Below, piece after piece: positions 2,097 to 59,483 of a DNA stretch of 64,000 nucleotides. Below the pieces are notes generated by a model. It was given only the letters and a program-made list of their open reading frames with translations. It was not told where the DNA came from and made no database searches. A program made the position numbers and the translations under genes. Position 1 is the stretch's first letter, and the number at the start of each line of letters is the position of its first letter. The DNA is from Chitinophaga sedimenti (GTDB lineage: Bacteria > Bacteroidota > Bacteroidia > Chitinophagales > Chitinophagaceae), in the NCBI RefSeq assembly GCF_023156195.1, contig NZ_JAKUKA010000001.1:6139501-6203500 (forward strand), read 5' to 3'.

Positions 2097-3612
2097 TTAT
2101 TTGAGCAGTTTGTCCAGCGCCTGGCGGCCCTCTTCGTTTTTAGGGTTCAGTTCCAGGAGCGGCGGTACATGCTGATGGCATCGTCGCGGCGGCCACTTTC
2201 GCGCAATGCTTCGCCGTAGCTGTCGTACGTGTTAAAATCATCGGGGGCAATGAAAGTATTCAACTTAAACGTTTCCAGCGATAACTGCTGATGATCTTTG
2301 AACGAAGCGAAGTAAAGAAAATCATATCCCAGCCGGTTCATCTCCCGGTAGTTGAAAAAATAATTCGCTGTATCGGCCCTTGCCGCCTGCAATACCGCCG
2401 CTGCATGGTTGGCATCGCCCTGCTGCAGGGCGCGGGCATAAGCCCTTACGGCAGATCGCTTATGTTCCAGCGGCATCGTAGCCCGGCCGTTCAGCAGGTA
2501 AAAGGCGGACGTCACAATATCGCCAAAGCGGCTTTCGCCGTTGATAAAGGCAACAATGGTCTGCGAGGGTTGCAGGTGATGGAAGTAGAAGGTCGCCATA
2601 CCGAACTTAAACCCGCCATGGCCCACGCTTTTACCAAAACCGGGTTGTTCAAATATCTCCCAGCCCATGCCGTAGTGTCCTTCTCCCTCGCCCAACATGG
2701 TATCCATGTGTTCCGTGTGTACTTTACCGTTATTTAATTTGATGGGTGTAAGCGCCTCTTCCATGCTGCTTTTGCGGAGCAGGCGGCCGCCGAAGAAGGC
2801 GGCATCGAATAGCAACATATCGGCCGTGGTGCTGATGATATTGCTGGAGCCGTAAGCTGCCTGGTTGTTGTACTCCGAGTACCGGAAACGTTTTACTTCA
2901 CTTGCGGGGATGTAATCTTCGTTATACATCACCGGCAGCACCTGGTGCACCGCGCGGGCAGTATCGTTCCAGTTGCTGCTGCCATAAATGGCGAGGTAGG
3001 TGTTTTGCATCCCGGCGGGACGAAAAATATGTTGTTCCAGGTAGCGGGCAAATGGCTGGCGCGTGATCTTTTCCACGATCATCGCGGCCAGCATATACCC
3101 GGTGTTGCAGTAGCGGAATTCCTCGCCCGGCTTAAAGTACAGCGGTTTGTTCCATTGCTGCAACAAGGGGAGCAGGATCGCATTGGTGATGACGGTGTCG
3201 GGGTTTAAGCGGATGGCTGCATCGGTGAGTTCTAAATTAGGAAGGCCGGAAGTATGCGTCAGCAAATGGCGGATGCTGACGCCCTGGAAAGGGAACTCCG
3301 GCAGATATTTTTGTACGGCGTCGTCCAGCTGCAATTTGCCTTTATCACGCAATTGCAGGATGGCGGTAGACGTAAATATTTTAGATATGGAAGCAAGGTT
3401 GAAGCGGGTTTGCGGGTGGTTGCGCTTTTGCAGCCGGTAATCTGCAAAACCGCCGCTGAACTGGTACACCATTTTACTGTTCATCGCCATTGCGAGGTTG
3501 CCGGGGTACAACTGGTAACGGGCAACCGAATCAAAATAGGCCGGCGGAAGCAGTTCTGGGCTTTTAATTGCGTGGTGGCCACGAATAACAAAGCAAGGGA
3601 AAGTGTTTTCAT
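2097..3612 (-). CDS. Secreted serine hydrolase (class C beta-lactamase/DD-peptidase fold), two apparent frameshifts
   Basis: This is a periplasmic penicillin-binding-fold hydrolase of about 505 residues once frames are restored. The catalytic SISK (SxxK) is near residue 75, followed by the YCN tyrosine motif and VGHGGF in place of the KTG box. A C-terminal extension looks like a TPR repeat. The chosen ATG gives a signal peptide (MKTLSLALLF..., ending KAQ). A base is missing just after it at about 3556 (CCAGG read as CCAG). A second base is missing at about 2153 (CCCTGG read as CCTGG) and cuts off the last 17 or so residues, ending LLK. Without these repairs the frame starts upstream in a TTG with no signal. 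Substrate may be peptidoglycan peptides, esters or beta-lactams and is not decided by the motifs. Confidence 0.78.
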
Positions 3613-3725
3613 ACCGCAATATTACCCGCTTTAGCAGCAGCCTGCGGGCGGAAGTGACTAACCGGGACAAAGGTGGGACGAGCATCGGGAACAATGTTAC
3701 GGGCCGTAATCCCCGAAATTTTCTT

Positions 3726-3733
3726 TAGGTTTG
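3726..3733 (+). promoter_or_regulatory. Bacteroidota -7 promoter element (TAGGTTTG)
   Basis: TAGGTTTG matches the TAnnTTTG -7 consensus. It lies about 20 bp before the ATG chosen for the LolC/E-type permease, which argues against the more upstream TTG/GTG starts. No clear -33 TTTG is seen. Confidence 0.4.
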
Positions 3734-3752
3734 GTGCGTGTAAATATTATTC

Positions 3753-4982
3753 ATGCAGGTTTCGTTTTTATCGCCCGGCGTATTGCGTTTAACAAGGCTT
3801 CGTCTTTTTCACGGTTCATTATTACCATTGCGATGGTGGCCACCGCCATCAGCGTAGCCGTGATGATACTGGCCACAGCGCTGGTCAGCGGTTTTCAGCA
3901 AACCATCCAGGATAAGATTTTCAGCTTCTGGGGCCACCTGCACGTAAACCAGTATCAGCCCAATGCGAGTCCGCTTACGGACCAGGTACCCATCTTCAAC
4001 GATGGCAACTTCCGGAAAAGGTACTGGCCATGCCGGGGTGGCAGCCATTAATTCTTTCGCCACCAAATCTGTACTGGTAAAGGCCGGCGCCGATATCGAG
4101 GGCATGATTTTTAAGGGGGTGGATAAAGATTATAACTGGAAAACGATCCAGTCCTTTTTACTCGAAGGCCGCCTGATCCGCTATACCGACAGCGCCTATG
4201 CGCCCGAAGTGCTCATATCGGCCACCACTGCCAGTTTGCTTAAATTAAAACTCAACGACGCCATCGTGGTCTATTTCGTGCGTGGCGACGGATTACCGCC
4301 CCGGGCGCGTAAACTCACCATATGCGGTATTTATAAAACGGGTATCGAAGAATACGATAAAACCTATTTTCTCGGAGATCTGCAACTGATCCGCAAACTG
4401 AACGATTGGGACGGCGACCAGATTGGTGGTTATGAAGTATTCCTGAAGGATTATAAAAATATGGATGCTACCAGCGATGCTATCCTGGATATGTTGCCGC
4501 AGGAGCAGACCGTGCGTTCCATGCGCGAAGTATATCCCAACATCTTCGACTGGCTGGCGTTGCAGAATAAAAACGAGATCATTATCCTCATCATCATGAC
4601 CATCGTGGCCGTGATCAATATGGTCACCGCCATCCTTATCCTCATCCTGGAAAGGACAAATATGGTGGGCATCCTGAAAGCGCTGGGCATGCGCAATACG
4701 TCGCTGCAACAGATTTTCGTGTTCCAGAGCGGTTACATTGTACTGGTAGGTGTGTTGCTGGGTAATATATTGGGGCTGGGACTCGCGTTCCTTCAACTGC
4801 AAACAGGCTTCTTCAAACTCCCGGAGGAGTCGTATTACATGACAACAGCGCCGATCTCCCTGCACTGGGGAAAGATCGTATTTATCAACCTGGCCACCAT
4901 CCTGATTTGCGTGGCGATACTGTTTATTCCCTCTGTATTGATACGGAAGATTGTACCGGTGAAGGCGATCCAGTTTAAATAA
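3753..4982 (+). CDS. LolC/LolE-like ABC transporter permease (FtsX family), frameshifted
   Basis: This is an inner-membrane permease of about 410 residues. It has one N-terminal membrane helix (FIITIAMVATAISVAVMIL), a large periplasmic domain, then three C-terminal helices typical of FtsX/LolE (IIILIIMTIVAVINMVTAIL with the ILERTNMVGILKALGM coupling segment, then two more). Such proteins extract lipoproteins from the inner membrane or drive other mechanotransmission steps with an ATPase, which is not next door. The two long frames overlap wrongly. Restoring CCTGG at 4012 and 4033 (both read CCGG) gives continuous NFLEKVLAMPGVAAIN. A T is probably also missing near 3763, joining ATG CAG to FIARRIAFNK. 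The 3' end overlaps the convergent TrmH gene by 8 bp. Confidence 0.75.
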
Positions 4983-5706
4983 GCAACCTGCCGCAGATAA
5001 TCCCCGTGGCCACGCCCGCATTCAATGACTCGGCGCCGCCGAGCCGGGGGATCGTGATCTTATGGCTGCATAGAGCAATGATCTCGTCGCTCAGTCCGCG
5101 CGATTCATTACCGATAAGAATAACACCCTCTGAAATTTTGCCGAAGCCGGCGATATTGTCGCCATGCAGTGTAGCGGCATAAGAGGGCACTTTGCCCAGC
5201 AGTGGGGCCAGTTCGGCGGTCATCACTTTTACGCGGCTGATACTACCCATGGTGGATTGTACGGTTTTGGCGTTATAAGCGTCTACACAGTCGGGCGAGC
5301 AAATGACCTGTGGAATGCCAAACCAGTCGGCTATACGAATAATGGTGCCCAGGTTGCCCGGGTCCTGCACGGTTTCCAGCATCAGGCTGATGCGGCCTTC
5401 CAGTACGGGTGTTTCGGCCACGGGTATCTTAACAATGGCCAAAGCGCCATTGGGGGTGGAGAGGGAAGAAAGTTGTTTCAGCGTGGCTTCGTCTACCTCG
5501 TTTATATCGGCGCCGGTAGCCTGTTCTGCCAGTGCACGGTGTTCGCTGAGCCAATTACGGGTGGCATATACGGCTAATACGGGTTGTTTGGCCTGTAGTA
5601 GCTCCTGCACGATTTTATCGCCTTCCGCTACAAAGTGGCCGAATTTTTGACGGTTTTTTTTTAGCTGTAATGATTGAATATATTTAATTTGCGCCTTTGA
5701 CAACAT
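4975..5706 (-). CDS. TrmH/SpoU-family RNA 2'-O-methyltransferase
   Basis: This is a cytoplasmic S-adenosylmethionine-dependent ribose methyltransferase of 243 residues, full length. It has an N-terminal L30e-like substrate-binding domain (KFGHFVAEGDK). The SPOUT catalytic domain follows, with motif 1 QDPGNLGTIIR, motif 2 ILIGNESRGLS and motif 3 IPRLGGAESLNAGVA forming the trefoil knot. The exact RNA target (23S rRNA or tRNA) cannot be told from the sequence. It is divergent from the TamL gene, a pairing I recall as frequent in Bacteroidota. No lesion is seen. Confidence 0.9.
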   Translation of the reverse strand: MLSKAQIKYIQSLQLKKNRQKFGHFVAEGDKIVQELLQAKQPVLAVYATRNWLSEHRALAEQATGADINEVDEATLKQLSSLSTPNGALAIVKIPVAETPVLEGRISLMLETVQDPGNLGTIIRIADWFGIPQVICSPDCVDAYNAKTVQSTMGSISRVKVMTAELAPLLGKVPSYAATLHGDNIAGFGKISEGVILIGNESRGLSDEIIALCSHKITIPRLGGAESLNAGVATGIICGRLLI

Positions 5707-5797
5707 AGGGTCAAACCTACATGAATTACTTCATTCGGCCAAGCCGGGGAGTTATTGCCGGACAGGAAACTACAAACTAAGCTAATATTGATTGCAA

Positions 5798-8233
5798 GTG
5801 CAGAAAACGTTCAACTCCGCATACCACCTTTTTACTTCATGCCTGTTGATCTGTGCCTGCCTGTTTATCAGCGCCTGTTCCAATACCAAATATCTCCAAA
5901 AAGACCAGCAGCTGTTTGTAGGCAGCGAGGTTAAAATAAACGGAGATATCACCTCCGCAGAAAAGCAGGATATAAAAAGCGCCCTATCTTCCAAATCACT
6001 CATGATGCAGCAGCCCAATACGAAGTTTTTGGGCATGCGCACCCGTGTGTGGCTGTACAACCAGAAATACAACGAAAAGAAATCTAACTGGTTCTGGAAC
6101 CTCGTACTGGCGCCCCGTAACCTGGAGGAGCCTGCGATTTACGACTCTTCCAAAACCCGGGAAGCCACGGACCGTATGGCTACCTACCTGCACAACCAGG
6201 GTTTCTTTTACGCGCAGGTGAGTTCAGAAGAAGAAGTGAAGAACCGCAAAGTGACCCTTAAATACAACGTGAATACCGGGCGCAATTTCGTGATCGATAA
6301 AGTAACGTTCGTGATCCCCGACACGGCGGTACGGGAAGTGGTGCTACAAAACCAGGCGCTTTCGCTTGTAAAGAAGAACACGGTGTACAAAGGTGAAACC
6401 TTGAACGCCGAACGCGAACGGCTTACCAGGGTGCTGCGCAATGCAGGTTACTACAAGTTTCAGCGCGACCTCATTGAGTTCGAAGTAGACACGCTTAACA
6501 AGTCGCTTTTCAAAAACGCCCTCAATCCCTTTGAGAACCTTACCGGTATTTTCAATAGCAGCCGCGGACAGAATAAACTCACGCTGGACGTGGAAGTGCG
6601 GGTAAATAAACCGCTGGATTCCAACAGCACCGCCGATAAATTGTATTTCATCGACAGCATTTACGTATACCCCGACCTGCCGCTGAACGGTAACCTGAAC
6701 GACACGGCCCTCAAAGAAACCCAGCGCCGCTCCTTCACCGTGCGTTCCTACAGCGATAACCTTCGTCCCGGTGTACTGGCTCGTTCTATTTTGCTCAGGC
6801 CTGGTAACAAGTACTCGATCGACAACTACAACGGCACTATCAATAAACTGTACGACCTGAACCTGTTCCAGTTCATCACCCTGCAATACCGCGAGCGGCA
6901 GGACAGCCTTCACAAACTCGACGTATACCTGCAAATGACGCAGAAGAAGAAACAGGAGCTGGGAGTAAATGCGGATGTAACCACGAGTTCCGATTACTTT
7001 GTAGGTAGCAGCTTATCTCGCTCAACTACCGCAATTATAACATTAACCGTGCAGCGAATGAGCTGCAGGTAAGCCTTAAGGGTGGTGTGGAAGTCGTGCG
7101 TAACAATGGCCAGTTCGCGTTGCAGACGAGGGAATACGGTATTGAAGGCAACTTTACTTTTCCTCGTTTCATCACGCCGTTCTTTACGGTGCGGCCGAGC
7201 AATCGTTCTACCGCCAAAACCAGGGTGAGTGCGGGTTTTAGCTCCATTTCCCGTGTAGAGAAGTTTGTGATTTCGACTTTGTCGTCCAGCTTCGGGTACG
7301 ATTGGAACGAATCTATTTACAAGCGCTGGCTGGTGCGCCCGATCACGTTAAACTATGTTGGGACGGAGCTGACGAAGGTGTTCCGCGATTCGGTGGTGAA
7401 CCTGAGCCCTTACCTGGTACGCAGCTTTGAGCCGGCATTTATCGGCGGTGAGTCGTTCACTTTCTTATACACCAATAACGACGCATTGCACACCCGCCGC
7501 AACTCTTTCCTGCGGGTGAATTTCGAGGAATCGGGTTTGTGGTTAAAGGGACTGAACAGCTTGATCTACGAGGTGTCCAGCAAGCGCACAAGCCTTGAAA
7601 AGGGCACCAACGTAAAAATATCGCAGTTCGTGAAACTGGATGCCGACTACCGCATTTACTGGAATCGCCCGAGAGCCTCCACGGTGGCGCGGGCGTATGT
7701 GGGGGTGGGTTTGCCTTACGGGAAGTCCGATGTATTACCTTACATCCGCCAGTATACGTCGGGTGGACCTAACAGCATCCGTGCCTGGCGTTTGCGTACG
7801 CTTGGGCCGGGCTCTTATGTAGATACTTCTGCCACGGCAGCGATTTTCCCCGATCAAACGGGCGACATGAAACTGGAGGCCAACCTCGAATACCGCTTCG
7901 ATATCTTACGCCTGTTCGGGGGCACCATCAACCTGAAAGGTGCTACCTTCCGGATATGGGTAATATCTGGATGCTGAAAAAAGACACCGTGCGTACCGGG
8001 GCGGAATTCAAATTCAATAAACTGTACAATGACCGGCAATAGGCACCGGCGCCGGTTTACGCCTCGATTTCTCCTTCTTTATTGTGCGGTTCGACTGGGG
8101 ACTGCCACTTAAAAAGCCGTTTAGGGCCGATGCGGCAGACAAGAGCTGGTACATCACTAAATGGGACCTTGGCAGCGGCAGCTGGCGCAAGGAAAACGTG
8201 ATCTGGAACGTGGCGATCGGCTATCCGTTCTAG
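5798..8233 (+). CDS. tamL: TamL-like lipidated BamA/TamA-family outer-membrane protein, frameshifted
   Basis: This is an Omp85-superfamily protein of about 812 residues. It starts with a lipoprotein signal (FISAC, Cys near residue 27), then POTRA-like repeats (GFFYAQV, NAGYYKF and LFQFITLQYRER regions). A 16-strand barrel follows with the RAWR lid-loop motif (near 7780) and the terminal aromatic residue (IGYPF). A lipid anchor on a TamA-type protein is the feature of Bacteroidota TamL, which with TamB is thought to aid outer-membrane assembly. Three lesions break the frame: near 7015 (nature unclear), 7950 and 8033 (both CCTGG read as CCGG). Repairing them yields one frame to 8233. A GTG at 5798 is preferred; the TTG at 5792 is also possible. 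Confidence 0.82.
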
Positions 8234-10386: not shown

Positions 10387-11380
10387 TTAAAACCGGGCCG
10401 ATATGGCGCCGAGACTCTGGCGGTATTCTGTAATCAATCTGTCAATAATTTCCTTTACACTTGTAATGTCTTCGACAAAAGCCACGCTTTGCCCCGCACT
10501 CCACAATTGATGATAGGAGCCGGGTTTCACGGCTTTTTCCAGTCCCTTCATACCCCGCACCTGTACGAGCATCTTGAAATACTTGCGGGTACGGGGTTCT
10601 TCGATAAATAGCGTTCGAACCAGTTTTGCTTATAACCCATCTTTTGGGCCACGGGCGTGTTGATGATATTGCAGGGCGTGCCGGAAATACGTTCCGTAAG
10701 CACAATGTCTTCCATCCCGTAGTCGACGATCGCATTTTTATATTCGTTGCTGACGGTTGCCTCCGTGCTGGCGATGAAGCGGGTACCGATAGATACACCC
10801 GCCGCACCCAGTACCATAGCGCTGGCCATTTGCTGCCCGGTAGCGATGCCGCCGGCGGCGATCACCATCTTATCGGGGAACGCGCGCTGCAACATGGGTA
10901 CCAGCACGTGCATAGGATAGGGGCCCGCGTGGCCGCCCGCCCCCGAAGATACCGCGATGAAACCGTCGCATCCCATATCCGCGGCCTTTTGGGCATGCAC
11001 CAGGTTGGTTACGTCGCATAAAACCGTGGCGCCGTAGGTGCGTGCTGCGTCGATCACCGGTTTCGGATTCCCGAGGGAGGTGATGTACAGGGGCACCTTT
11101 GCAGCTGTACAAACTGCCGGTGTTGCTGGAACAAGGGATTCGTTTTTTGTACAATGATGTTTACACCATAGGTACCGCCGGGATGTTGCGCCAGGTGTTG
11201 GTTCAGGCGTGCCAGTACTGCTGCCAGTTCGCCTTCCTTCCGGAAGTTGAGGGTGGGGAAGGTGGCAGCTACCCCGCAGGCTATCCCGGCTTTGGTCATG
11301 GCCTCATTGCTCACCAGGAACATGGGCGCCATGATTAGCGGATGCTGTATGTTCAGTTTCGCGGTTAGTTGGGTTTGCAT
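10387..11380 (-). CDS. Nitronate monooxygenase / FMN-dependent 2-nitropropane dioxygenase-like, frameshifted
   Basis: This is a cytoplasmic FMN-binding TIM-barrel oxidoreductase of about 331 residues in the NMO/FabK superfamily. It starts HPLIMAPMFLVSNEAM and has the SSGAGGHAGPYP loop carrying the family histidine. The phosphate-binding AAGGIATGQQMASAM and GVSIGTRF segments follow. The frame breaks at 11117 (minus-strand CCTGG read as CCGG, restoring QQHLAVCTAAKVPLY) and near 10580 (a C lost, restoring RKYFKMLVQVRGMKGLEKA). It is tightly spaced after ribE (18 bp), which would supply flavin precursor. The natural substrate is not known; detoxification of alkyl nitronates is the family activity. 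Confidence 0.82.
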
Positions 11381-11398
11381 ATATATATGACGTTGCGG

Positions 11399-11989
11399 CT
11401 ATTTCCGTACTTCCAGCTGCCGGGCAACATATTTGCCCAGGATGTCGAATTCCAGGTTCACGATATCGGAAACTTCCGGGTGCTGCATATTGGTGTGTTC
11501 GTAAGTATAGGGAATGATGGCTACGGAGAACTCACTTTCCGTAACATCAAACACCGTAAGACTGATACCGTTGAGACAGATGGAACCCTTTTCGACCATT
11601 AATCCGGCGAAAGCGTCGGGGTATCCGATGCGGTACAGCCAGCTGCCGTTTTGTGCTGTTACGGCCAGGCAGGAGCCGGTGCCATCAACATGGCCCTGTA
11701 CAATGTGCCCGTCTATCCGCTGGTTCAGGACCATGGCGCGCTCCAGGTTTACCTGGTGGCCCACCTTCAGCAGGGCGAGGTTTGTTTTCTGCAGCGTTTC
11801 CTTAACAGCAATGATGGTATAGGCATCTGCTGTTACCGAAGTTACCGTAAGGCACACCCCGTTATGCGACACGCTCTGATCTATCTTTAACTCGGTGGCC
11901 AGCGTGCTCTGGATGGTAAATTCCAGGTTGTCTCCCTGTTTGTCGATCGCCGTTACTTGTCCTAATGTTTCTATAATACCGGTAAACAT
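11399..11989 (-). CDS. ribE: Riboflavin synthase alpha chain
   Basis: This enzyme dismutates two 6,7-dimethyl-8-ribityllumazine molecules to riboflavin and a pyrimidine. It has 196 residues made of two lumazine-binding barrels. The invariant MFTGIIE start was chosen over an in-frame ATG 48 bp upstream. NGVCLTV and HIVQGHVDG lie in barrel one, and NGISLTV with IIPYTYEHTN in barrel two. It is first of a probable minus-strand operon with the FMN enzyme and the MFS carrier. No lesion is seen. Confidence 0.93.
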   Translation of the reverse strand: MFTGIIETLGQVTAIDKQGDNLEFTIQSTLATELKIDQSVSHNGVCLTVTSVTADAYTIIAVKETLQKTNLALLKVGHQVNLERAMVLNQRIDGHIVQGHVDGTGSCLAVTAQNGSWLYRIGYPDAFAGLMVEKGSICLNGISLTVFDVTESEFSVAIIPYTYEHTNMQHPEVSDIVNLEFDILGKYVARQLEVRK

Positions 11990-14631: not shown

Positions 14632-14703
<72 letters not shown>

Positions 14704-21790: not shown

Positions 21791-22233
21791 ATGGCAAAAG
21801 AGATCGCAACGTACGTGAAATTGCAGGTTAAAGGCGGCCAGGCCAACCCTGCACCTCCGATTGGTCCTGCATTAGGTTCCAAAGGTGTGAACATCATGGA
21901 GTTCTGCAAACAGTTCAATGCCCGCACCCAGGATAAAATGGGTAAAGTGTTGCCTGTTGTGCTGACTGTTTACACTGACAAATCTTTCGACTTCGTAATC
22001 AAAACTCCTCCGGCTGCCGTACAGCTGCTGGAAGTCGCCAAAATTCAGTCTGGTTCTAAAGAACCTAACCGTAGCAAGGTGGGCAAAGTTTCTGGACTAA
22101 CATCGAAGCTATTGCAAAAGACAAAATGCCCGATCTGAACTGCTTCACACTGGAAAGCGCTATGAAAATGGTAGCTGGTACAGCTCGCAGCATGGGTATC
22201 ACTGTTGATGGTAAAGCTCCCTGGGAGAACTAA
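21791..22233 (+). CDS. rplK: Ribosomal protein uL11, one frameshift
   Basis: This 50S protein of the GTPase-associated centre binds 23S rRNA and is needed for stringent factor activation. About 147 residues are expected. The first 100 codons read perfectly ([24 protein letters not shown]). A base is missing at 22092 (TCCTGG read as TCTGG). Restoring it gives [21 protein letters not shown] and the conserved [12 protein letters not shown] end. An essential single-copy gene cannot be broken here, so this is most likely a read error. It is the first gene of the L11 operon. Confidence 0.93.
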
Positions 22234-28168: not shown

Positions 28169-32468
<4,300 letters not shown>

Positions 32469-39098: not shown

Positions 39099-39124
39099 AT
39101 TTGGTTTGAATCCAGTCCGCTGCG

Positions 39125-39627: not shown

Positions 39628-39635
39628 TAAATTTG
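39628..39635 (+). promoter_or_regulatory. Bacteroidota -7 element (TAAATTTG)
   Basis: TAAATTTG lies 9 bp before the ATG of the membrane AraC regulator, giving a very short leader. No clear -33 TTTG is seen. Confidence 0.4.
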
Positions 39636-39644
39636 GGGGCAAAC

Positions 39645-40776: not shown

Positions 40777-40904
40777 TTAAGTAGTTATTTATCAGTTAGT
40801 TAGTGTTTTTGTGAGACAGGTTTACTGCCCGTTGAGACAACGTTTATTCTTTCCTGTGATGTTTTTGCAGTTGTTTTGGCGGCAGACTAAATGCAGCTTA
40901 CTCT

Positions 40905-41437
40905 ATGAAGTGCGAACGATTTTTAATACTTGTCGTATCCCTTACCTGCCTGTTCGTATCATGTAAAAAAGACGACGATGGTAACAAAAAGACGCCGGCC
41001 AGGAATACCGGCATGTAACGCCCAACGACAATCTCGGCCCCGAAGTTTACCGGTTAAAAACGCTGGGGCTCCGGACAAACGTACAACAGGTGCTCGAGGC
41101 TCAAAGCGAAGATAATCCCGCCGGAGGAATGCGCGGCATCAGTAGTGCCATCACCCTGTATTTTACAACAATAGGACCGCCGCCAACCGGTACTTACAAG
41201 GTAACGTCGCTGGATAAACTAAAGAATGCTGACCAGGTTGCCGTGTATGTCCAAACATATGGCGATCCCCGAACAGGTGGCAATATCACCGGCTGGCTAT
41301 CGCAGGAGGGCAGTAGGCAAACGATCTCCTATACATTCGAGAACGGCAAAGCAGGCGCCATATTTAAAGACATTGTTATCAAACAGGGTGGAAGCGGCGC
41401 CACCATGGGCACCGTATCAGCCAACATCAGCCAGTAA
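40905..41437 (+). CDS. Putative lipoprotein, one frameshift
   Basis: This protein of about 177 residues has a lipobox (LFVSC, Cys about 20) followed by a charged tether KKDDDGNKK. The frame breaks at 41008, where CCTGG is read CCGG. Repair gives NTWHVTPNDNLGPEVYRL and runs to the stop. The mature domain looks beta-rich (GISSAITLYFTTIG, GTYKVTSLD, AVYVQTYGDPRTGG). No family is recognised. It is first of three lipoprotein genes 15-36 bp apart, likely co-transcribed. Confidence 0.68.
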
Positions 41438-41473
41438 TTAGACTATCTATTTATCTTATAACCTTCATGTAAC

Positions 41474-42829
41474 ATGAAAAGGATTACCTATGCCCTGTTT
41501 TCGCTGCTGGTCGTAGCAACGGGGGCCTGTACCAAAACAAAAGACGCGGACAAAAAAGGAGAAGGTGCATCGGGCCCGCTTATCAGCGCATCGTCCGGCT
41601 GGAAAAAGGTGGGCGCCATTCCCTTCATCGGCGCGGTTACGGGGTTCGAAGGCTCGCAGGCCATTACGCCTTATGACCTGTCTGTGGTCGATAATCAGCT
41701 GGCGTTATTGTACAGCGAAGACTATAAATTGACGGCGGTGCAGGGTACAAAGCCCTATAAGGTCAGGTTTACACCCGGATCGGCTATTCCGGCCAGCACG
41801 CCTTTGCAGAGAGGCGGTTATTCATTTTGTTATAGTTCAAGGTTCATTCCCGGTAGTTTTAACACGGTTTATATGAAACTGGAAGGCAGTTCTTATTCGT
41901 GTTTTATTTATACTGATGACGCGGGACCGATAGCCGGCAGCAATACGGGGTGGATAACGCCTGCGATTAGACCGATCAACTGGTATCCCGATGGTGGATT
42001 GACGATGACCGTCGCCGGCGGAAATAAGCAGGCTTATGTGATTTCTTACAAGTTTCCTAATACAGGAAATTTTGCAGTGGCCGAAAACGTGTGGCGCCTC
42101 GATCCGGCCACCTGGAGAGCGTACGATGGCCTGCGGCTTTCGGACGGTACTACAAACCAGTTTCTCGTTTCGGTCGAGGGGTCTAAAGTGTATTTCTCAA
42201 TATTGAAGAATAACCCCGACTTTGTATCTACAACAGGCATGGACCCGAGTTTTTTTACCGTGATGAAACAGGAGATGCCCGGACTGGATGCTGCTAATTT
42301 TACCAGTGCGAACATGATTATCGCGAGTACGGTGGTCAACGATAAATATACGGTACTGGTAGGCGAAAATGCGCCCGGAAACTACCTCGGTTTCAATAAG
42401 GTGCATTGTTACCAATGGCAGAAAGGGGCTACGCAGTTTACTAAACTCTATGGTAATATCGCCCTTCCTGAAGATGTGGGACGCAATTTTATGAGCAGGG
42501 ATGCTATCGGCACGAGGCCCCTGGAAGGTTCGGGAGCTGCCGTTAAGTTCACCCCGGATGGCACTGCCTATATGTTGTATGATTATTCCCCCTCCAATTA
42601 TGTTCAAAACGACAAGTACACCGCATTGGCCATCATTAATGCAGGCGGTGTAAAAATAACAGGTAAATATTCGGCCTCCGATCCCGGTGGTCTGTATGAC
42701 CAGATCGGCCTGGCCGTTTGCCAATACTTCGACGGCGCTTATTACGCGGTGGTCTACCAGAAAAGAGAGATTGTGTTTACGATTAAAGATCCGCGGTTCA
42801 GGCTGGAAATTGTAAAACTTGTGCCTTAA
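41474..42829 (+). CDS. Putative lipoprotein, beta-propeller-like
   Basis: This protein of 451 residues has a lipobox (VATGAC, Cys 19) and a Lys/Asp tether. The mature part is beta-strand rich with regularly spaced aromatic/Gly turns, suggestive of a propeller, but no blade motif can be fixed by eye. No enzyme motif is visible. It sits in the middle of a three-gene lipoprotein unit and is intact. Confidence 0.65.
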   Translation: MKRITYALFSLLVVATGACTKTKDADKKGEGASGPLISASSGWKKVGAIPFIGAVTGFEGSQAITPYDLSVVDNQLALLYSEDYKLTAVQGTKPYKVRFTPGSAIPASTPLQRGGYSFCYSSRFIPGSFNTVYMKLEGSSYSCFIYTDDAGPIAGSNTGWITPAIRPINWYPDGGLTMTVAGGNKQAYVISYKFPNTGNFAVAENVWRLDPATWRAYDGLRLSDGTTNQFLVSVEGSKVYFSILKNNPDFVSTTGMDPSFFTVMKQEMPGLDAANFTSANMIIASTVVNDKYTVLVGENAPGNYLGFNKVHCYQWQKGATQFTKLYGNIALPEDVGRNFMSRDAIGTRPLEGSGAAVKFTPDGTAYMLYDYSPSNYVQNDKYTALAIINAGGVKITGKYSASDPGGLYDQIGLAVCQYFDGAYYAVVYQKREIVFTIKDPRFRLEIVKLVP

Positions 42830-42844
42830 CGTTAAAATTTATTT

Positions 42845-43242
42845 ATGAGCAAATTGATATTTACGGCGCTGACAGCTGTTATTGTCACGTGCATGGTATC
42901 CTGCGCAAAGGAGACGGAAGAGCGTCCATCGAAAACGTCCATCAATAATACTACCTGGCAGGCCGAGGTTACGGTTACCGGTAATGTAGTTACGCAAAAC
43001 ATATTTGAGTTCTCTAATAACGGCGCTTATTTTGCCTGGCGGCCGGCTGGTGCGCCCAGTTTTACCGGCACTGGGCGCAGAACGGAACAACGGTAAATTT
43101 CATTTTTAAGGAAACAACTGCCAGCGGGAATTATTTCTGGGATAATACAGGAACCCTGAGTGCTGATGGTACTGCATTTACCGGCACCATGCAACGAAGG
43201 GGACAACAGGGATCAGGTACTTTTACAGCAAAAAAATTATAA
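42845..43242 (+). CDS. Small lipoprotein, lipocalin-like, one frameshift
   Basis: This protein of about 132 residues has a lipobox (CMVSC, Cys 20). The mature domain begins NNTTWQAEVTV and continues through repeated strand-turn units (FEFSNNGAYFAW, GTVNFIF-like, GTLSADGTAFTGTM). This is the pattern of small lipocalin/META-like Bacteroidota lipoproteins. A base is lost at 43071 (ACCTGG read as ACTGG), which truncates the frame. Repair restores FTGTWAQNGTTVNF and the end GTFTAKKL. Function unknown. Confidence 0.65.
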
Positions 43243-43260
43243 CCCGTGTGTGCTGGCCCC

Positions 43261-43300
43261 AGGACTGACCCGGAAACTTGTTTTACGGGTCGGTCCTTTT
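43261..43300 (+). terminator. Intrinsic terminator after the lipoprotein genes
   Basis: A 12-bp stem (one T-G pair) with a 13-nt loop, then TTTT. Confidence 0.85.
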
Positions 43301-43335
43301 GCTTTTGATCTTCTATGCATGCCGGGCATCTGACT

Positions 43336-43364
43336 AAAAAAGGCGCCCCGTCCGGAGCGCCCTT
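43336..43364 (-). terminator. Minus-strand terminator
   Basis: A GC-rich hairpin (GGCGC/GCGCC core) with a T-run on the minus strand, just after the coiled-coil gene. Confidence 0.75.
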
Positions 43365-43369
43365 CTTAT

Positions 43370-43907
43370 TTATGATTTCAGCTCTTCGGCTTGTTCTTTA
43401 ATCTCCTGTTTCAGGTCTGCCAGTTCTTCCTTCATATCGTCCTCCAGTTCTTTGATCCCGGCTTTCAGCTCTTTCCGGGCCTGTTTACGCTCTTTTTTGG
43501 TTTCGTATTCTTCAGCAGCATAGTCCTTTTTCAGGTCACTTACCTCCAGTTCAAACTCCATACGTTTGGCGATTGCCTGCATATCGTAGCTGCCCAGCAC
43601 TGCTTTTCTTGCAAACGCAAGGGCATCCTGGTTCGGATCTTTCAGGTAATCTTTGATGATAACCATGTAGTCCACCATAGCTTTCTTAAAAGCTTTCATG
43701 GTTTTTCGGATACCCCGGTACTGCCAGCGGGAAATTCGCTTTATCCAGGTTTTCGAGTGCCAGCAAGGCTGTGTCCAGCTGCGCTTTCGGCATATCTTTC
43801 AGCCTGGAAACAAGGGCGGTCGGATTGGTGGGGTCAAAAGAGAAGTTCTGGGCAAAGGCAGTCAGGCTCATGCAGGCCATTAACAAGAAGGAGAGAAACG
43901 TTTTCAT
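43370..43907 (-). CDS. Secreted coiled-coil protein of unknown function, one frameshift
   Basis: This protein of about 178 residues has a signal peptide (MKTFLSFLLMACMSLTAFAQ). The rest is almost entirely helical, ending in a highly charged coiled coil (EEYETKKERKQARKELKAG...). The two frames overlap. An extra base near 43713 (CCTGG read as CCGGGG) explains the break and gives AVPGIRKTMKAFKKAM. No family recognised. It is monocistronic, with its own terminator. Confidence 0.6.
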
Positions 43908-43985
43908 CTGGGTTGATAAATTTAGTGTGATAAGTGTTGTTTATAAGGAAGACGACGCTGCTCAGGATTTGTTACAGAATTTTTC

Positions 43986-44058
43986 AAAAAAACACAAGGC
44001 CGGGAAAAGGAGAAGGCATAGTCCACTGATTAATGCCAAATATCCTTCTACCAGCCTT
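43986..44058 (-). terminator. Terminator of the pectin operon
   Basis: AAGGC/GCCTT outside and GGCAT/ATGCC inside form a branched hairpin with a T7 run on the minus strand, downstream of the DUF4861 gene. Confidence 0.6.
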
Positions 44059-44077
44059 GCGGGGAAGTTGGATAATT

Positions 44078-45331
44078 TTATTCTTCGATGGTTACTTTCA
44101 CCTCTGCAGATACCTGTTTGCCCAGGTTTAACACATACTGGCGGAAGTACGCCGAGTCGGCAAACTTCTCACTCAGTTCCCAGGCGGCAACTGCATAATA
44201 TTCCACCGGCTTATCGGTAATACTCATTTTTGCAAGGTAACAGCTGGTCAGCTGCCTGCCCGCCGGCGCCTTTATGAAGCCTGGTAGCGGTCGTTCGGCA
44301 GCAGTAATGCTAGTCCGATCAGCCACTCTTTATTATAACCATGTCTTTCATGAGAGATCAGCGCCGTCCATTTGTCGTTCACCTTTACTTCACGGGGCTC
44401 ATTTACTGCGTTGATGTTAGGGATGCTGATCACCAGTTGCTCGCCCTTTTTGCATTGCTCACTTTTACTTCATTATGATAGGCGTACATACCCGGCCAGA
44501 TGCTCACGTTCTCTTCCAGACCATATCCCTGCCAGTTTTCGTAACGGAGGCGCAGCGCGGATTTCACCGGTCCTTCGGCAGTTATCTTTAAAGTTGTTTT
44601 CTCTATATTATTGATGCTGTCGTTCGCGGTAATCCCCAAACGCAATGCGCCGGTGTCGGTCAGTAAGCCTACGCCGCCAATGCCGGCAGAATTGCCTACT
44701 GCCAGGGGATCGCGGCCCCAGGCGGCCATGGTGTGGTAGTTGTCTTCCACCGCGCCGTCGGCATTTATGCCCACGTTTTCCGGTGTAATGCCTGGCGTGA
44801 GTTTACCGAAGAGGTCTTTCGCGTTGCGGCCATCGAGGTAATGGCGGAAGCCTACTTTATCATTTTCCCAGGAAGGGCCATCTGTCTGGTATTTCTGGAA
44901 GCCCTGCGCTTTGGGCATGTCCTGCCTTTCCACCGTTTCGCTGAGTGCGGGCTTTACCGGGCTGGTCGCCGATTCTCTTTTCCCAAACCTTACACTGGTG
45001 CGGGTAAGGTAGGCTGGCTGATCTTTTATCCATCCCAACGTATAATCAGCAGTCGCGTTCGCAGGAAGGTTCACTACGAAAAAAGTTCGTCCCACTGCCC
45101 GTCTCCGTCCATATCATTCAGCTGCGAAGCCACCGTATCGCCGGTAGGGGATATCACCAGCGGGAATTGTTCGCCCAAAGGCTGCGTTTTAATGCTGCTC
45201 CCGGCGATGCTGATGGGTTTATCGGTCAGTTCAACGGGCGAAGTGTTCTCGAGCTTAATATGCGCCTGTTTCGCAGTATTACAGGAAGCCGCCGCCAGGG
45301 TTGCCAGCAGCAGGGGCAGGGTATATTTCAT
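44078..45331 (-). CDS. DUF4861 family lipoprotein of the pectin locus, three frameshifts
   Basis: This lipoprotein of about 418 residues (lipobox AAASC, Cys 17) belongs to DUF4861, a family regularly found with GH105 and pectin or ulvan lyases. It has HIKLENTSPVELTDKPI at the start of the mature domain and DNYHTMAAWGRDPLAVGNSAGIGGVGL in the centre. Losses lie at a T-run near 45080 (DELFFVVNLP restored), an A-run near 44455 (SNAKKGEQLV) and a C next to CCAGG at 44280 (RYPGFIKAPAG). It is last gene of the GH105-PL22-DUF4861 operon, facing the periplasm or outer membrane. Its activity is unknown. Confidence 0.8.
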
Positions 45332-46688: not shown

Positions 46689-48022
46689 TTATTTTTTCAT
46701 TTGTACGGAACTGTCATTGATCTCGAAGGGATGTAAGCCCAGCATGCGGTAGATTTCCGCACCGGCTAACAACACCGGGCCATAACCATGCGCCGCGAAA
46801 TTGCTGATCGGGCGGTAATAGTAAAACGCCGGATCGAAGCCCATGCCGGTGCCCACGCAGGTACCTTCTACCTGTCCGTTAGCGGCTACCTTGGAGCTTA
46901 CGGCGTTCCAGGCCAGCAGGGCCATAGGACCATAGGCTTTCGGGTGCAGCCAGCCTTTATTGATGGCGCGGGCGATGCAGTAGGCGTAAATAGCAGTAGC
47001 GGAGGTTTCGAGGTAACTGTCGTTGCGGTCTAACAACTGGTGCCAGAAGCCTGTTTTGTCCGGCGCTCGGCCAGTCCGGCGGCATGGCGGGCCAGGGTAT
47101 TTAAAATCTCGGTGCGGCCTTCATGGTTTTCCGGAAGGGCATCGAGTATTTCGATCATGGTCATAATGGCCCAGCCGTTCGCACGGGCCCAGTGGAATTG
47201 CGGATGCGGCTCCATGTCCTGCACCCAGCCGTGCATGAACAGGCCACGTTCTTTGTTGAACATGCGGGCGCTGAACTGGCGGAACTGCTTCACGGCTTCA
47301 TCGTAATATTTCTTATCGCCCGTCAGCTGGCCCATTTGCATAATAGCTGGCAGGCTCATATACAGGTCGTCCAGCCAGAGGGTGTTGGGCTGGGGACGGT
47401 TGCGCGCCAGGGTGCCGTCTGTTAAACGGAACTCTTTTGTCATGATGTAATGCAGGAAATTATCGACCATCGGGCGCACCGTAGCATTATCGGCGCCTGC
47501 GCGGATCGCTTTGATCATGGAGGCGGCGAGGGAACCGGCGTCGTCCAGTGCATGGGGTTCCATTACAGAACGAACTGGCGTACTGTTAGCGGGCTGTCCC
47601 TTGTACTTTTTCACTACATCTCCCAGGAAATTGACGCGCTTAATCGTATAAGCAGTATACCGTTTATCACCAGTGGCGGCGCCTGCTTCGAGCATGCCGG
47701 TGTAGGTAACACCCCATTCATAGCTGGTAAGCCGGAAGTCACCGGGCTGAAATATAGTATTAGGCCCGGCTTTGGCGATGTCTACTTTCTCTTTGCTCGT
47801 TTTGTCCGTGAGCTGTGCGGGGGTAACCCCGTCGAGGTAAGTGTATACCCGGTCCAGTACGGCTTTCACTTTCTCCGGGGTTGTTTCGCCGTAGGGCGTT
47901 ACATAATCGGGTTTAGTGAGGTGCAGGGGAGCCGTGACGTCGTTGCCTTTTCCGCTTACATACTGGGCTTGCGCCGGTAGTGCGAATGCCACTAAAATCA
48001 AAGGCAGGAAGCTATTTTTCAT
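46689..48022 (-). CDS. GH105 unsaturated rhamnogalacturonyl/galacturonyl hydrolase, one frameshift
   Basis: This secreted enzyme of about 444 residues has a signal peptide (MKNSFLPLILVAFALPAQAQ). Its (alpha/alpha)6 barrel removes the unsaturated uronic acid from the non-reducing end of pectin lyase products. Visible are WLDDLYMSLPAIMQMG with the catalytic Asp, WARANGWAIMTMIEILDALP, and after repair GFWHQLLDRNDSYLETSATAIYAYCIARAINKGWL. A base is missing at 47060 (minus-strand CCTGG read as CCGG, restoring ERLDKTGFWHQ). It is first gene of the minus-strand pectin operon, divergent from susC. Confidence 0.9.
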
Positions 48023-48255
48023 ATCGATGGAAATTGGAAATTATGTTGATGTGTTTTATTTCATAACGCGATATAATGGCAATATATTCATTCTTTCTCT
48101 TCCGGCATCCTGTACTTACATGTACCAGTAAACTCAACGTAATTGTCATGGCTACACTTAATCGTTAAGCAGGATGGAGCAGGACACTCGGTAATTTTAT
48201 CGTAGCTAATTTACCAGTACGAATTCCAAAGTTCTTTATTTAAACTCCACGCTAT
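48023..48255. promoter_or_regulatory. Divergent control region of the pectin locus
   Basis: This 233-bp AT-rich gap lies between the outward-reading GH105 and SusC genes, so both promoters must be here. I see a repeated ACCAGTA (near 48122 and 48212), but no good TAnnTTTG element on either strand. No regulator gene is adjacent. Confidence 0.5.
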
Positions 48256-51200
48256 ATGACTCCCAAACTGATACGGTGGCGGAACAAGTTATTGTTGCTT
48301 GTACTGGCCATCCTTACCACTCATTCCATATTTGCGCAGACCACAGTAACCGGCAAAGTAACCGACGAAAGAGGCGCTCCCCTTGAAGGCGCCACGATTC
48401 AACAGAAAGGAACTCCACTAAACACAGTGACAAAAAAGACGGTACATTTTCACTCGCAGGCGTTACTGCATCTTCCGTCATTGTAACGTTTGTTGGCTAC
48501 GAAACAAAAGAAGTAACATTAACAGGACAAGCATTAAGTATTTCCATGGAACTCAGTGCCAGCGCGCTGCAGGACGTAGTAGTCGTTGGGTATGGCAGTC
48601 GCCGTAAAGGCGATGTAACCGGCGCGGTAGCTTCCGTTAGTGAAGTAAAAATCCGCGAGGTGCCTACGACCAACATTACACAGGCATTACAGGGCCGTAT
48701 TCCGGGCCTGGTGGCCACACCATCGTCGTTCCGTCCCGGTTCCGGCGGCACCATCCGTATTCGCGGTAACCGCTCACTGGTGGCTACGAACGATCCGCTC
48801 GTGGTGGTGGATGGTATTCCTATTGCCTCCAGCATCAACGACCTGAACCCGCTCGATATTGAAAGCATCGATGTGCTGAAAGATGCTTCGGCCACCGCCA
48901 TTTATGGCTCGCGTGGCGCCAACGGCGTTATCCGGTAACGACTAAAAAGGGGAAGGCCGGCAAGGTAACAGTCGAATACGATGGAAAGGTATCGTTTGAT
49001 AACCTTATTCGTCCGCTGACGGTATTTAATCCCGGCGAGTTTGCAGACATGCGTCGCCAGGCTTACTTCGCGTCACGGTCTTACAACACTTCGCTAAGTG
49101 CGGCCACACCCGCCAATCCAAATTACTATTTCCCGGACCCGCGCATCGACTCGGTACTGTTTGGCGCGCGGCTGGACTATTATACCTGGCAGAACGTAGC
49201 TAATGGCTATACGTGGATCGACCGTTCGCGCAACATTGCGGCCAAGCGCGCTACCACGGAAGAGGAGAAAACGCAGCTCAAAAACCTGGGACTGGCGATC
49301 TTAGACAGTGTGGCGATTTATGATCCATCTAAAGTAACCGGTTACAACTGGCAGAACAATGGCCTGGAAACCGGCATCACCAATAACCACAACATTACCG
49401 TACGCGGTGGTACCGATAAGTTCAAAGGCTCGTTCAGCGGTGGTTATTTCAGCCAGAAGGGCATTGAAACGGGCCAGGACTATACCCGTTATTCCTTCAA
49501 CCTGAGTACAGATGTAAAACCGCATGAGTACGTGAACTTTGGTGGTGGTGTCCTGTATTCGTTCGCCATCCAGAATACCGGCGCTACGGTGTACCGCGGC
49601 GCATCGGGGCAGCTGCCGATCGCACAGCCTTACGATTCTACGGGTACGTTTCTATTGACACCCGGCAACGATGCCAACATCGTTAACCCGCTGAACGATG
49701 TAAATACGATCATCAACGAAACCCGCATCAACCGCGTGATCCCGAACGTATTCGGGGAAGTGCAGCTGCTGAAAGGCCTGAAGCTGCGCGCTGCGGCGAA
49801 TATTGATATGTCCAGTGTAATCATTGGTGGATTTAGTGGTTCGGTGTCATCGTCACGGGCGGGCGGCACGGCTACGGCCTCGTACACGACGCGTAATTAT
49901 TTTACCTGGTCGGCACAAAACTTCCTGACCTATGATACGCGCATTGGTGCGAAACATTCGCTGAATGCCATGGTGGGACAGGAGTTCGTAAAGAACCGGT
50001 TCGAAGAACAGGCGGTGTCGGCAGATCAGTTGATTTACGAAAGCCAGAAATGGCATTCGTTGCAGAATAATTCGGCTACCACCCCTAACCAGGCGCAGGG
50101 CCAGTTTACGGAGTCACAGAACTGGTCGTATTTCGGGAGGATCAACTATGGTTATGACGACCGTTACCTGGTTACCTTCAACGTACGTGACGACTGGTCA
50201 TCTGTATTACCGGCGGGCAACCAGCACCGGTATTCCCATCGGGAGCGGTTTCCTGGCGCATCAACCAGGAGAAGTTTATGGCTTCCGTTTCTGGATCGAT
50301 AACCTGAAGCTGCGGCTGGGGTATGGGCAGGTAGGCAATGCCGGTATTAGTCCTTACCTGGCAGGCGGTACACTCACGCGTACGCCTTATAACTACGGTC
50401 CCGGCGCTGCGCAGGGATATGCGCCAAGTACTTTACCACTTGATATTACCTGGGAAAAAACGAACTCGGCTAACCTCGGTATCGACTTCGGGTTCCTGAA
50501 GAATAGAATTAATGGTACGATCGATCTGTATCAGACCAAAAGCAACCAGATATTGAGCAAACGGTTGCCCTCCACCAGTGGCTTTTCAAGCGTACAGGTA
50601 AATGTAGGGGAGGTGGAAAATAAAGGGATCGAACTGAGTTTATCCACTTTAAATATTGCGAAGCCAGATTTCAGCTGGAGCACCGATATCATTTTTGGTG
50701 TGAACGAAGAATCGATCAACCGCCTGGAAACAAAGGCAGATAACATTGCAAGCCAGTGGTTTATCGGGCAGCCGTTGAGCGTTTATTATGACTACAAATT
50801 TATGGGCGTGTTCCAGTATGCGGATACGGTGAAAGGTGGCATCCTGAAAGACTATTTCTGGACCAAGCCAGGTAACCGCACTAATGCCGCTTACCAACCG
50901 GGACGCGCGTATGTGGCGGACCTCAATGGGGATACGGCCATTACGGAGCTGGACAAAATAGTGTTGGGTTCACATAACCCGAAGTGGACGGCGAGCATCA
51001 GCAACACGTTTACCTACAAAGACTTTGAGCTGAATGTATTCATTTACGCCCGCCAGGGATCGCTGATCCGCGAGATGCGCCCGAACCTGAACGGTCGTTA
51101 TCAATCTTATAAAGTGGATTACTGGTCGCCCACCAATCCATCTAACCAGTACGCACAACCCAATAACACGATCGACATCCAGCAATATTGGCAGGCGATG

Positions 51201-51464
51201 GGCTTCCGCGACGGTTCGTTCGTACGTGTGCGCAACATTTCGCTCACGTACCGGTTACCGCGTAAACTGCTGGATCACTGGAAGATACCCAGTTTATCGG
51301 CCTACGTAAATGTGTTGAACCCTTTCCTGTTCAGCGAATACAAAACCGCCGACCCGGAAACCGTGCCGTACCTGAGTTCTTACCCGACCAGTTCTACGAG
51401 TGGCCCCGGCCCCAGCTCGTTTAACTACCGCAGTTTCCTGGTTGGTGTGCGTTTAGGACTTTAA
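48256..51464 (+). CDS. SusC-like TonB-dependent outer-membrane transporter, four frameshifts
   Basis: This outer-membrane importer of about 1,070 residues would take up pectin oligosaccharides using TonB energy. It has a signal peptide and a carboxypeptidase-like domain (TTVTGKVTDERGAPLEGATI). Then comes the plug (VVVVGYGSRRKGDVTGAV; RIRGNRSL; DPLVVVDGIPI; SIDVLKDASATAIYGSRGANGVI), then a 22-strand barrel ending FLVGVRLGL. Losses are an A near 48433, CCTGG read as CCGG at 48932 (GVILVTTKKGK restored), a T near 50245 and CCTGG read as CTGG at 50291 (SVSWIDNLKLRLGYGQVGNAG). It is followed by susD after 22 bp. Substrate is inferred from the divergent pectin enzymes. Confidence 0.9.
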
Positions 51465-57712: not shown

Positions 57713-57720
57713 TATATTTG
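57713..57720 (+). promoter_or_regulatory. Bacteroidota -7 element (TATATTTG)
   Basis: TATATTTG is an exact TAnnTTTG match, 16 bp before the chosen ATG of the immunity-like gene. A weak TTG lies 15 bp upstream of it. Confidence 0.5.
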
Positions 57721-57736
57721 TCTTAACCTGATGCCT

Positions 57737-58150
57737 ATGAGTACCTACATCGATAACACCATCGAAACTTTAGAGAACAAAATATGGGAATACAAGAAGT
57801 TCCCGACTATCCTCATCGAAACCTGCCACAACGCCCGTAAAAAGAAGATTAAGGATTTGTCGCTCAACGAACTGCGCACCCTGTTGCAGCAGGACATCGG
57901 TGTGCCCTACATCCTGCCCTCTGTGATGGAAATACTGGAAAAAGACCTCCTGGCCGACTCCCGCTTTTACCCGGGCGACCTCCTCCTGGCCGCTATATCT
58001 ATGTCTGACCGCACCTGGAAGCAGCACACTGAAACGGGCATGCGTTTAAAAGCCCTGCTCGACGATGCCGTGCAGCGGGAAGACTGGCGGGTGAACAGTA
58101 AAATCCAGGATGCGGTAGAACGCTTCCGGAACGCGCGGGTATTAGCTTAA
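57737..58150 (+). CDS. Contact-dependent inhibition immunity-like protein (CdiI_3 type), orphan
   Basis: This small soluble protein of 137 residues matches the pattern of CDI immunity proteins of the CdiI_3 family. It has an LSLNELRTLLQQDIGVPYILP segment, then ILEKDLLADSRFYPGDLLLAAI followed by an aromatic residue. Immunity proteins bind and neutralise the toxic C-terminus of a cognate CdiA or other polymorphic toxin. No toxin, RHS or CdiA/B gene is in this window, so it is an orphan here. ATG 57737 is chosen; 57731 is also possible. It overlaps the convergent oxidase gene by 9 bp. Confidence 0.65.
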   Translation: MSTYIDNTIETLENKIWEYKKFPTILIETCHNARKKKIKDLSLNELRTLLQQDIGVPYILPSVMEILEKDLLADSRFYPGDLLLAAISMSDRTWKQHTETGMRLKALLDDAVQREDWRVNSKIQDAVERFRNARVLA

Positions 58151-59483
58151 ACCCAGCCTGCGCCCGATATTGGAGCTGAATTTCGTGTAAGGATCATACT
58201 TGTGCTTTACCTCCAGCCACTCGGTGTACTGGGGGTACATCGCTTTAAACATACCTTCGGCCAGCAGTGCATCTTTACCCAGGTACAGCCTGCCGCCCGC
58301 TGCCAGTACTCTCGCATCGAGCTTGGGCGTAAATTCAAACAGTTTTTTGGTTACCGGGAAGTCGATCGCCGTGGTATAACCTTTAAAGGGGAACGATAAC
58401 AGTCCCTGCCCATCGCCCATTTTCTTAAACACGTTCAGGAACGGAGTACAACCACTGTCGGCAATCATGTGCAGGATCTCTGTGAGCACCTGTTTGCCAT
58501 TGGTTTCGGGAATCACGAACTGGTACTGCACAAATCCTCTTTTACCATAACCCCTGTTCCAATTATTGATCGCATCCAACGGGAAAAAGAATTTCTCGTA
58601 GTGGATAAACTCTTTGGGAGAGTTCTGTACAAATGCGATCACGCGGTTCAGTACGCGTACGGTGAGGTTGTTCAGTGTAAAGTTAGGCATGAAAAACGGC
58701 ACCGACAGTTTACTGGCTGGGTGCAGCTTCAGGGGATCATTTTTTAATTTCTCAGGGAGATCGGCCAGTTTGGCGGCGTTACCCAATGTAAGCACGCCGC
58801 TGCCGGTTTTGCTGCCTTTCGCCGGGCATCTATCCAGGCCACGGAGTAGTTATACTCGTGGTCGTAAGTGTCCAGGGCCTCCAGCATGTGGTCCAGGTTT
58901 TTATTTTGATCGACTTCTGTTTAAAGTAAGTCGTTTCTATTTTTCTCAGTTTGATGCGGGCAGTGAGGATCACGCCGAGCAATCCCAGTCCGCCGAAGTT
59001 AGCCCAGAACAGGTCCGGGTGTTCATCGCGCGAAGCCGTAACAATACGGCCATCCGCGAGCAGGATGTTAAACGACAATACACAGTTTACAAACGAGCCA
59101 TCGGTATGGTGCGCTTTACCGTGAATATCGTTGGCAATGGCGCCGCCAATGGTCACGAACTTTGTACCGGGACAAATCATCGGCAGCCAGCCTTTGGGGG
59201 CAAAGGCGGTAATGATTTCCTCGAGGCTGGCGCCCGCACCGCATTCAAGGATGCCTTCCTGCTCATTCCAGTCCATGAAATAGTTCATATGCGTGCAATC
59301 GCCCACGAAGTTGTGGTCGTTGATGGCCTGATCGCCATAACTGCGACCCAGGCCGCGGGGCACCAGGTTGTACTGCTCAAGCGCCTGCTGCACGTCGCCC
59401 GCGCTGCGGATGGAGCCTGTGAAAGATTCAACTACCGGGTAATTCCCCCAACCTGTAACTTTTTCCGTTTTATGAACTGGCAT
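58142..59483 (-). CDS. FAD-binding oxidase, DprE1-like, two frameshifts
   Basis: This flavoprotein of about 447 residues is in the vanillyl-alcohol-oxidase superfamily. It has TGWGNYPVVES, the FAD-pyrophosphate loop PRGLGRSYGDQA, CPGTKFVTIGGAIANDIHGKAHH and a C-terminal substrate domain (FFPLDAINNWNRGYGKRGFVQYQFV). This resembles DprE1, which oxidises decaprenyl-phosphoryl-ribose in mycobacteria; here the substrate is unknown and DprE2 is not adjacent. An A is missing near 58905 and CCTGG is read CCGG at 58822 (DALAKGSKTGSGVL restored). ATG at 59483 is preferred because a -7 element at 59505-59512 lies upstream of it. Confidence 0.8.

Follow-up and report, generated by a model that had tools for sequence, protein, structure and literature searches.

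Nanopore basecallers current at the time and run with default models have been described as leaving about 70% of the consensus errors of a Dcm-methylated strain in CCAGG/CCTGG, with homopolymers as the next class, and these motif errors are ascribed, in the available text of that study, to methylated DNA read by models untrained on it (PMC6591954). The same error classes are used in the accessible part of PMC6984161, modification-linked mismatches in Oxford Nanopore reads are described for Listeria (PMC10687267) and 5-methylcytosine motifs have been obtained by RIMS-seq (PMC8565308), as far as the text available for these two papers goes. Here, we describe frameshifts of the same two classes in a 64,000-nucleotide stretch of Chitinophaga sedimenti (the window; G000:C1:6139501-6203500), whose genes for a type IX secretion system plug protein, TamL and SusC/SusD indicate Bacteroidota. 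The source genome (G000) has 6.42 Mb in 3 contigs and a completeness of 80.49%. In our view, and with a probability of roughly 0.88, the frameshifts are errors left in the consensus of a long-read assembly that was not polished, and they fall into two main classes, one in base runs and one at modified CCWGG (CCAGG or CCTGG).

Frameshifts at CCWGG and in base runs

Frameshifts were called by aligning, codon by codon, the intact reading frames of the main reference relative, G015, to the assembly with one-base frameshifts allowed; a second relative, G088, served as second reference, and both were used unedited. G015 is 92% identical to the C. sedimenti genome over the 8.1-kb rpoB-rpoC stretch and 79% over all aligned genes. 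Lesions were tallied in reference coordinates, by counting the sites of each of the 512 strand-folded 5-mers that overlap a frameshift, and no letters of the assembly were restored, so the test is independent of what the assembly 'should' say. The window set consists of 36 genes with a G015 homologue (14226 codons), one G015 open reading frame on a tRNA cluster (14412-14688) having been excluded ahead of counting, and the held-out set consists of 270 genes in 360 kb beside the window, sequence that the model which wrote an earlier note on the window had not seen. Frameshifts with poorly aligned flanks were removed (11/45 in the window and 60/278 in the held-out set), which leaves 34 and 218, respectively, and the G088 set, covering the window plus flanks, comprises 125 genes with 107 kept frameshifts.

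At least one frameshift is present in 20 of the 36 window genes (17 after the flank filter), in line with the claim of the earlier note that about two dozen genes are split by single-base changes. That note had also placed the indels at CCWGG, and in the window CCAGG/CCTGG indeed has the lowest p of the 512 classes (11/191 reference sites against a base rate of 0.7%, p 1.7e-7), with CCCCC/GGGGG second by p but at a higher rate (4/19). In the held-out sequence, CCWGG (50/1065 sites, p 7.5e-25) ranks second after A5/T5 (78/1359), and the comparison words CCCGG and GG(A/T)CC are hit at 6/494 and 1/198 sites. With G088 as reference it is again at rank 1 (29/533, p 4.6e-16; A5/T5 27/525), so that the count of CCWGG sites against homologous proteins proposed in the earlier note finds the enrichment with two references; where both cover, 87 of the 95 lesions called with G015 are recovered with G088 too. 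Among reference CCWGG sites in aligned genes, 61/1263 (4.8%) overlap an indel. Eighteen of the 21 positions that had been named lie within 6 nucleotides of a frameshift called separately against G015 and G088, here with no flank filter.

Of the 34 window frameshifts, 11 lie where the reference reads CCWGG; the remainder comprise 4 with CCGG in the assembly, 4 with a C-W-GG or CC-W-G assembly word without a base run, 13 in runs of four or more bases and 2 that fit neither class; the 218 held-out ones are distributed over reference CCWGG (51), assembly CCGG (27), other C-W-GG words (8), runs of four or more bases (112) and neither (20). The enrichment of CCWGG in the earlier argument, that random mutation would not choose one 5-mer, therefore stands, but base runs are an equally common cause and the 'one 5-mer' wording is too strong. 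The usual outcome given in the earlier note, loss of the middle T or of one C, agrees with the deletions at a reference CCWGG, where the middle base or a C is missing in all nine window cases (middle base 7, C 2) and in 35 of the 40 held-out ones (middle base 25, C 10; the others are G in 3 and other in 2). Gains of the forms CCGTGG and CCACGG had been reported as well; both are found, the two insertions kept in the window reading one or the other, and CCACGG recurs in 4/30 held-out insertions overall and in 4/11 of those with a reference CCWGG. An apparent over-representation of the motif in the window (224 occurrences versus 109 expected from dinucleotide shuffles) was dropped as unsupported by a higher-order model: maximal-order Markov observed/expected ratios over 424 kb are 0.96 for CCAGG and 0.91 for CCTGG, and those of five relatives span 0.73-1.15.

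Clean relatives and essential genes

Clean genomes put through the same procedure with G015 as reference have no CCWGG lesions, at 0/531 sites in G088 and 0/372 in a third relative, G071. Good frameshifts number 32 in 13641 codons of the C. sedimenti genome versus 3 in the 28156 codons of four clean relatives taken together, and the other controls give 11 in 45148 codons (G088) and 1 in 32292 (G071). These third-genome controls replace a reciprocal one (own reading frames against G015), which yielded 158 kept 'frameshifts' and was discarded because open reading frame fragments of the C. sedimenti genome mirror its own lesions. Eleven frameshifts lie in the essential pair rpoB (7) and rpoC (4), and none is found in 33 other genomes of the genus (G015 not counted), where rpoC is covered in full in all and rpoB in full in 22, over about 450-461 codons in 10 and over 17 codons in 1. 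These eleven are therefore sequencing error rather than mutation, and genuine pseudogenes are ruled out. The errors, their positions and their absence from the relatives are thus matters of observation.

The affected genes of the window are as follows; rpoB is named by synteny and length, with rpoC adjoining, and the TamL label rests on an NCBIfam match on a fragment, under its curated cut-off.

3963..8230, + strand: two conserved genes, the second TamL-like; lesions near 4012, 4033, 7950 and 8033, with CCGG in the assembly at each, against both G015 and G088
10390..11445, - strand: conserved gene; lesion near 11117, assembly CCGG for reference CCTGG
21791..22230, + strand: conserved gene; lesion near 22092, assembly CTGG for reference CCTGG
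24286..28077, + strand: rpoB; 7 frameshifts, including those near 25110, 25454, 25701 and 26498 with CCGG or CTGG words
28175..32465, + strand: rpoC (NCBIfam); 4 frameshifts, near 28543, 28665 and 29145 (CCGG words) and 31873 (CCGTGG)
34562..35987, + strand: conserved gene; insertion-type lesion near 35304, assembly CCACGG for reference CCTGG
39100..44090, no strand: stretch for which a search of 9 relatives gave no counterpart; contains the earlier-named sites 40234, 41008 and 43071
46692..48040, - strand: conserved gene; lesion near 47060
48256..51461, + strand: SusC/RagA-like gene (match on a fragment); lesions near 48932, 50228 and 50291
58145..59483, - strand: conserved gene; two lesions, one at a CCGG word near 58822 and one in an A run near 58904

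Substitutions at the middle base of CCWGG

The motif also has a class of substitutions, from the middle base to G or C, which is supported but less firm than the indels. In ungapped alignment, CCWGG of G015 reads CCSGG (S, G or C) in the C. sedimenti assembly 124 times and the opposite direction is seen 26 times, a W-to-S ratio that is the largest of 136 contexts and above the general W-to-S excess (14422 vs 10201). At non-wobble centres, W-to-S changes number 46 versus 2 in reverse at CCWGG and 848 versus 716 in other contexts (Fisher p 2.9e-10); as a rate with G015 this is 46/539 CCWGG sites versus 862/35315 elsewhere (p 1e-12), and four clean relatives show 3/145 versus 46/535 for the C. 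sedimenti genome (p 0.006). In a three-way test G088 alone deviates at no CCWGG site, and between relatives substitutions are found at 0/97 CCWGG sites (177/7324 in other contexts) for G071 versus G088 and at 4/245 (373/16690) for G088 versus G015. Several results weigh against the class: the excess is smaller with the closer reference G088 (11/231 vs 356/17362, p 0.009), the assembly alone deviates in the three-way test at 5/151 CCWGG sites versus 70/9539 others (p 0.006, a small number), the clean G071 compared with G015 gives a similar rate of 5/113 (262/8472 elsewhere), and the C. sedimenti genome has a higher G+C content than G015 as well as the overall A/T-to-G/C surplus given above. Because the rates differ between references and controls, the size of the class is uncertain, at about 3-8%.

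Candidate methyltransferases

A search of the genome for a cytosine methyltransferase, suggested in the earlier note, finds two C5-cytosine methyltransferase genes (PF00145), one of them beside a Vsr gene; there is no match to the N4/N6 family PF01555, and other methyltransferase classes were not searched for. The first (locus L075, G000:C1 near 524 kb, on the same contig as the window) overlaps the Vsr gene by 4 nucleotides, the Vsr itself being recognized by TIGR00632 (140.8 bits, cut-off 97.85) and by PDB 1cw0 (E 3.8e-34). The gene row at L075:9129-13168 consists of Vsr, the methyltransferase, which is DrmMII-like, two GHKL ATPase genes (HATPase_c_3 and HATPase_c) and a response-regulator-like gene whose match lies under its curated cut-off. 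The methyltransferase gene aligns with an intact 422-amino-acid homologue of G071 at 84% identity across 417/422 codons and is split by three frameshifts, one at a CTGG word, one in an A run and one in a C run. These are the assembly's own error classes, and in the living cell the gene is probably unbroken. That homologue has 45 PDB matches, HaeIII and DNMT1 foremost, which do not settle its specificity, and it matches 3lx6 and 3me5, which we take to be Dcm proteins, over residues 4-217 only. A methyltransferase match of this type is present in 23/198 genomes, the source genome included, and G015 has none at E 1e-15. Among the plasmid relatives listed, those in Acinetobacter and Campylobacter have ATP-binding or response-regulator genes annotated where the match lies.

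The second gene (locus L076, G000:C1 near 5.68 Mb) encodes 406 amino acids, is open throughout and matches the dcm superfamily at 106.9 bits (cut-off 100.65). Its neighbours, a relaxase-like gene (match under the curated cut-off) and a YWFCY gene, suggest that it may lie on an integrative element.

Origin of the frameshifts

In the model that we favour, the platform is most likely Oxford Nanopore and the source DNA would carry a modified C in CCWGG; by comparison with Dcm, this is most likely the inner C, as 5-methylcytosine. The modified C would shift the pore signal on both strands, and the basecaller would then omit the middle base or one C, write CCSGG, or write CCACGG/CCGTGG; the mark may be made by the Vsr-linked C5-methyltransferase at 524 kb, as with dcm-vsr in E. 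coli. Failure of the basecaller at a modified cytosine had been proposed in the earlier note and gains support from the lesions in essential genes, the clean relatives, the homopolymer class, the low completeness of 80.49% in only 3 contigs, and the presence of Vsr with a C5-methyltransferase; a Dcm-like CCWGG modification of the source DNA is the best explanation of this error footprint. That the frameshifts are real mutations, the genome being in decay or hypermutable and a mutation mechanism perhaps being aimed at methylated CCWGG, could be argued from the repeated lesions at one motif and from the Vsr locus. Deamination and Vsr repair, however, yield C-to-T changes and not one-base losses, the homopolymer class is of a familiar sequencing type and eleven frameshifts in rpoB and rpoC are incompatible with life, which together make this account extremely improbable.

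Default basecalling models are not known to have a weakness at CCWGG when it is unmodified, which counts against an explanation of the errors as a weakness of the basecaller in the absence of any modification. Such an explanation is unlikely also in view of the C5-methyltransferases and Vsr that the genome encodes and of the link drawn between CCAGG/CCTGG errors and methylated DNA in the text available of PMC6591954, although the same text reports that a Dcm-trained model lost consensus quality outside the Enterobacteriaceae (mean -1.64 qscore). If CCWGG is modified, the enzyme could instead be the 406-amino-acid one at 5.68 Mb, whose gene is open over its full length and scores above the dcm superfamily cut-off, or one of a class that was not searched for. 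The genome has no PF01555 enzyme, and the Vsr linkage favours the enzyme at 524 kb by analogy only; we regard this alternative assignment as a serious though somewhat doubtful possibility. Two results fail to help the assignment to the Vsr-linked enzyme: no relative that combines this enzyme with an assembly of this kind was found, and G071, which has the 84% identical enzyme, shows no CCWGG lesions, as expected of a polished assembly, and is uninformative on the link between enzyme and motif because its assembly is too clean.

Other features of the window

The stretch at 39100-44090 (about 5 kb) holds a fragment of an AraC-type regulator and a 451-amino-acid open reading frame without a Pfam match. 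A further segment, 17094-21583, is missing at the syntenic place in G015 (a blastn gap) and has open reading frames of 207, 677, 159 and 303 amino acids, 0/4 with a Pfam match.

Between tRNA-Thr(GGT) and tuf (EF-Tu, 14927) lies a tRNA-like element (14780-14926, + strand) that scores 42.8 bits with the Rfam tRNA model and receives no ARAGORN call. It precedes tuf in 27/30 loci of the genus, the present one included (motif search; 24 distinct sequences), and reaches or exceeds the Rfam threshold in 17/20 loci scanned; ARAGORN calls it in 14/30 loci, as Cys, Leu, Phe, Tyr, Stop or none. The D-arm and T-arm are conserved (T-stem 5/5 pairs in 27/27), the anticodon arm ranges from 22 to 34 nucleotides, and an inverted repeat, GTTTGTAA...TTTACAAAC, stands between the element and the tuf start codon in 27/27. 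The element has the look of a tRNA mimic within the leader of the tuf mRNA, and EF-Tu itself may bind it in an autoregulatory circuit; a brief literature search found no report of a tuf-leader tRNA mimic.

Implications and comparison with known systems

Long-read errors of this kind are already known, and the present case is ordinary in kind and useful in practice. The gene calls of the assembly are predictably unreliable and its gene list needs checking, and at a further few per cent of CCWGG sites an amino acid seems to be altered by a miscall that is invisible to frame checks. More generally, an assembly by itself can suffice to infer a base modification when held-out sequence and clean genomes serve as controls, which is useful where the raw signal has not been deposited.

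The closest likeness is to the errors described by Wick et al. 2019 (PMC6591954), which, in the text available, share the motif, the homopolymers as partner class and the consensus level; their Dcm-methylated Klebsiella came with reads and a reference, whereas the Chitinophaga case is argued backwards from the assembly alone. For the enzyme, the best PADLOC match is DrmMII (PDLC02649; E 5e-56 and 1.2e-46 for two fragments, 2.8e-169 for the intact homologue), and CCWGG modification is reported for DISARM in the accessible parts of two reviews (PMC11676413, PMC12926258). Pointing the other way, the C5 enzyme of a Serratia DISARM has a different motif in the available text of PMC9142583. The DrmB marker PF09369 (DUF1998/MZB) has 0 matches in the C. 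sedimenti genome, with 8/14 control genomes positive, and the other scanned neighbours at L075 have no DISARM match in PADLOC. Without the DrmB marker, membership of the locus in DISARM is ruled out, and the DrmMII label is, given also the Serratia motif, a lead and not an assignment.

The loci of a C5-methyltransferase, a histidine kinase-like/paraMORC ATPase and a response-regulator-like gene described by Bellieny-Rabelo et al. 2021 (PMC8011034) have the same gene types in a row, but vsr is mostly downstream of the response-regulator-like gene there and upstream of the methyltransferase in Chitinophaga; CCWGG does not appear in their main text. With E. coli dcm-vsr, the Chitinophaga locus shares a C5-cytosine methyltransferase adjoining a Vsr mismatch endonuclease, and differs from it in having vsr upstream and, downstream, two GHKL ATPase genes and one response-regulator-like gene. 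We tentatively propose, at a little under even odds, that the Vsr-linked DrmMII-like enzyme of this widespread non-DISARM locus methylates CCWGG in Bacteroidota. If true, the motifs of other C5 enzymes could be read from the error spectra of unpolished public genomes without raw signal, and the locus would be an independently assembled counterpart of dcm-vsr.

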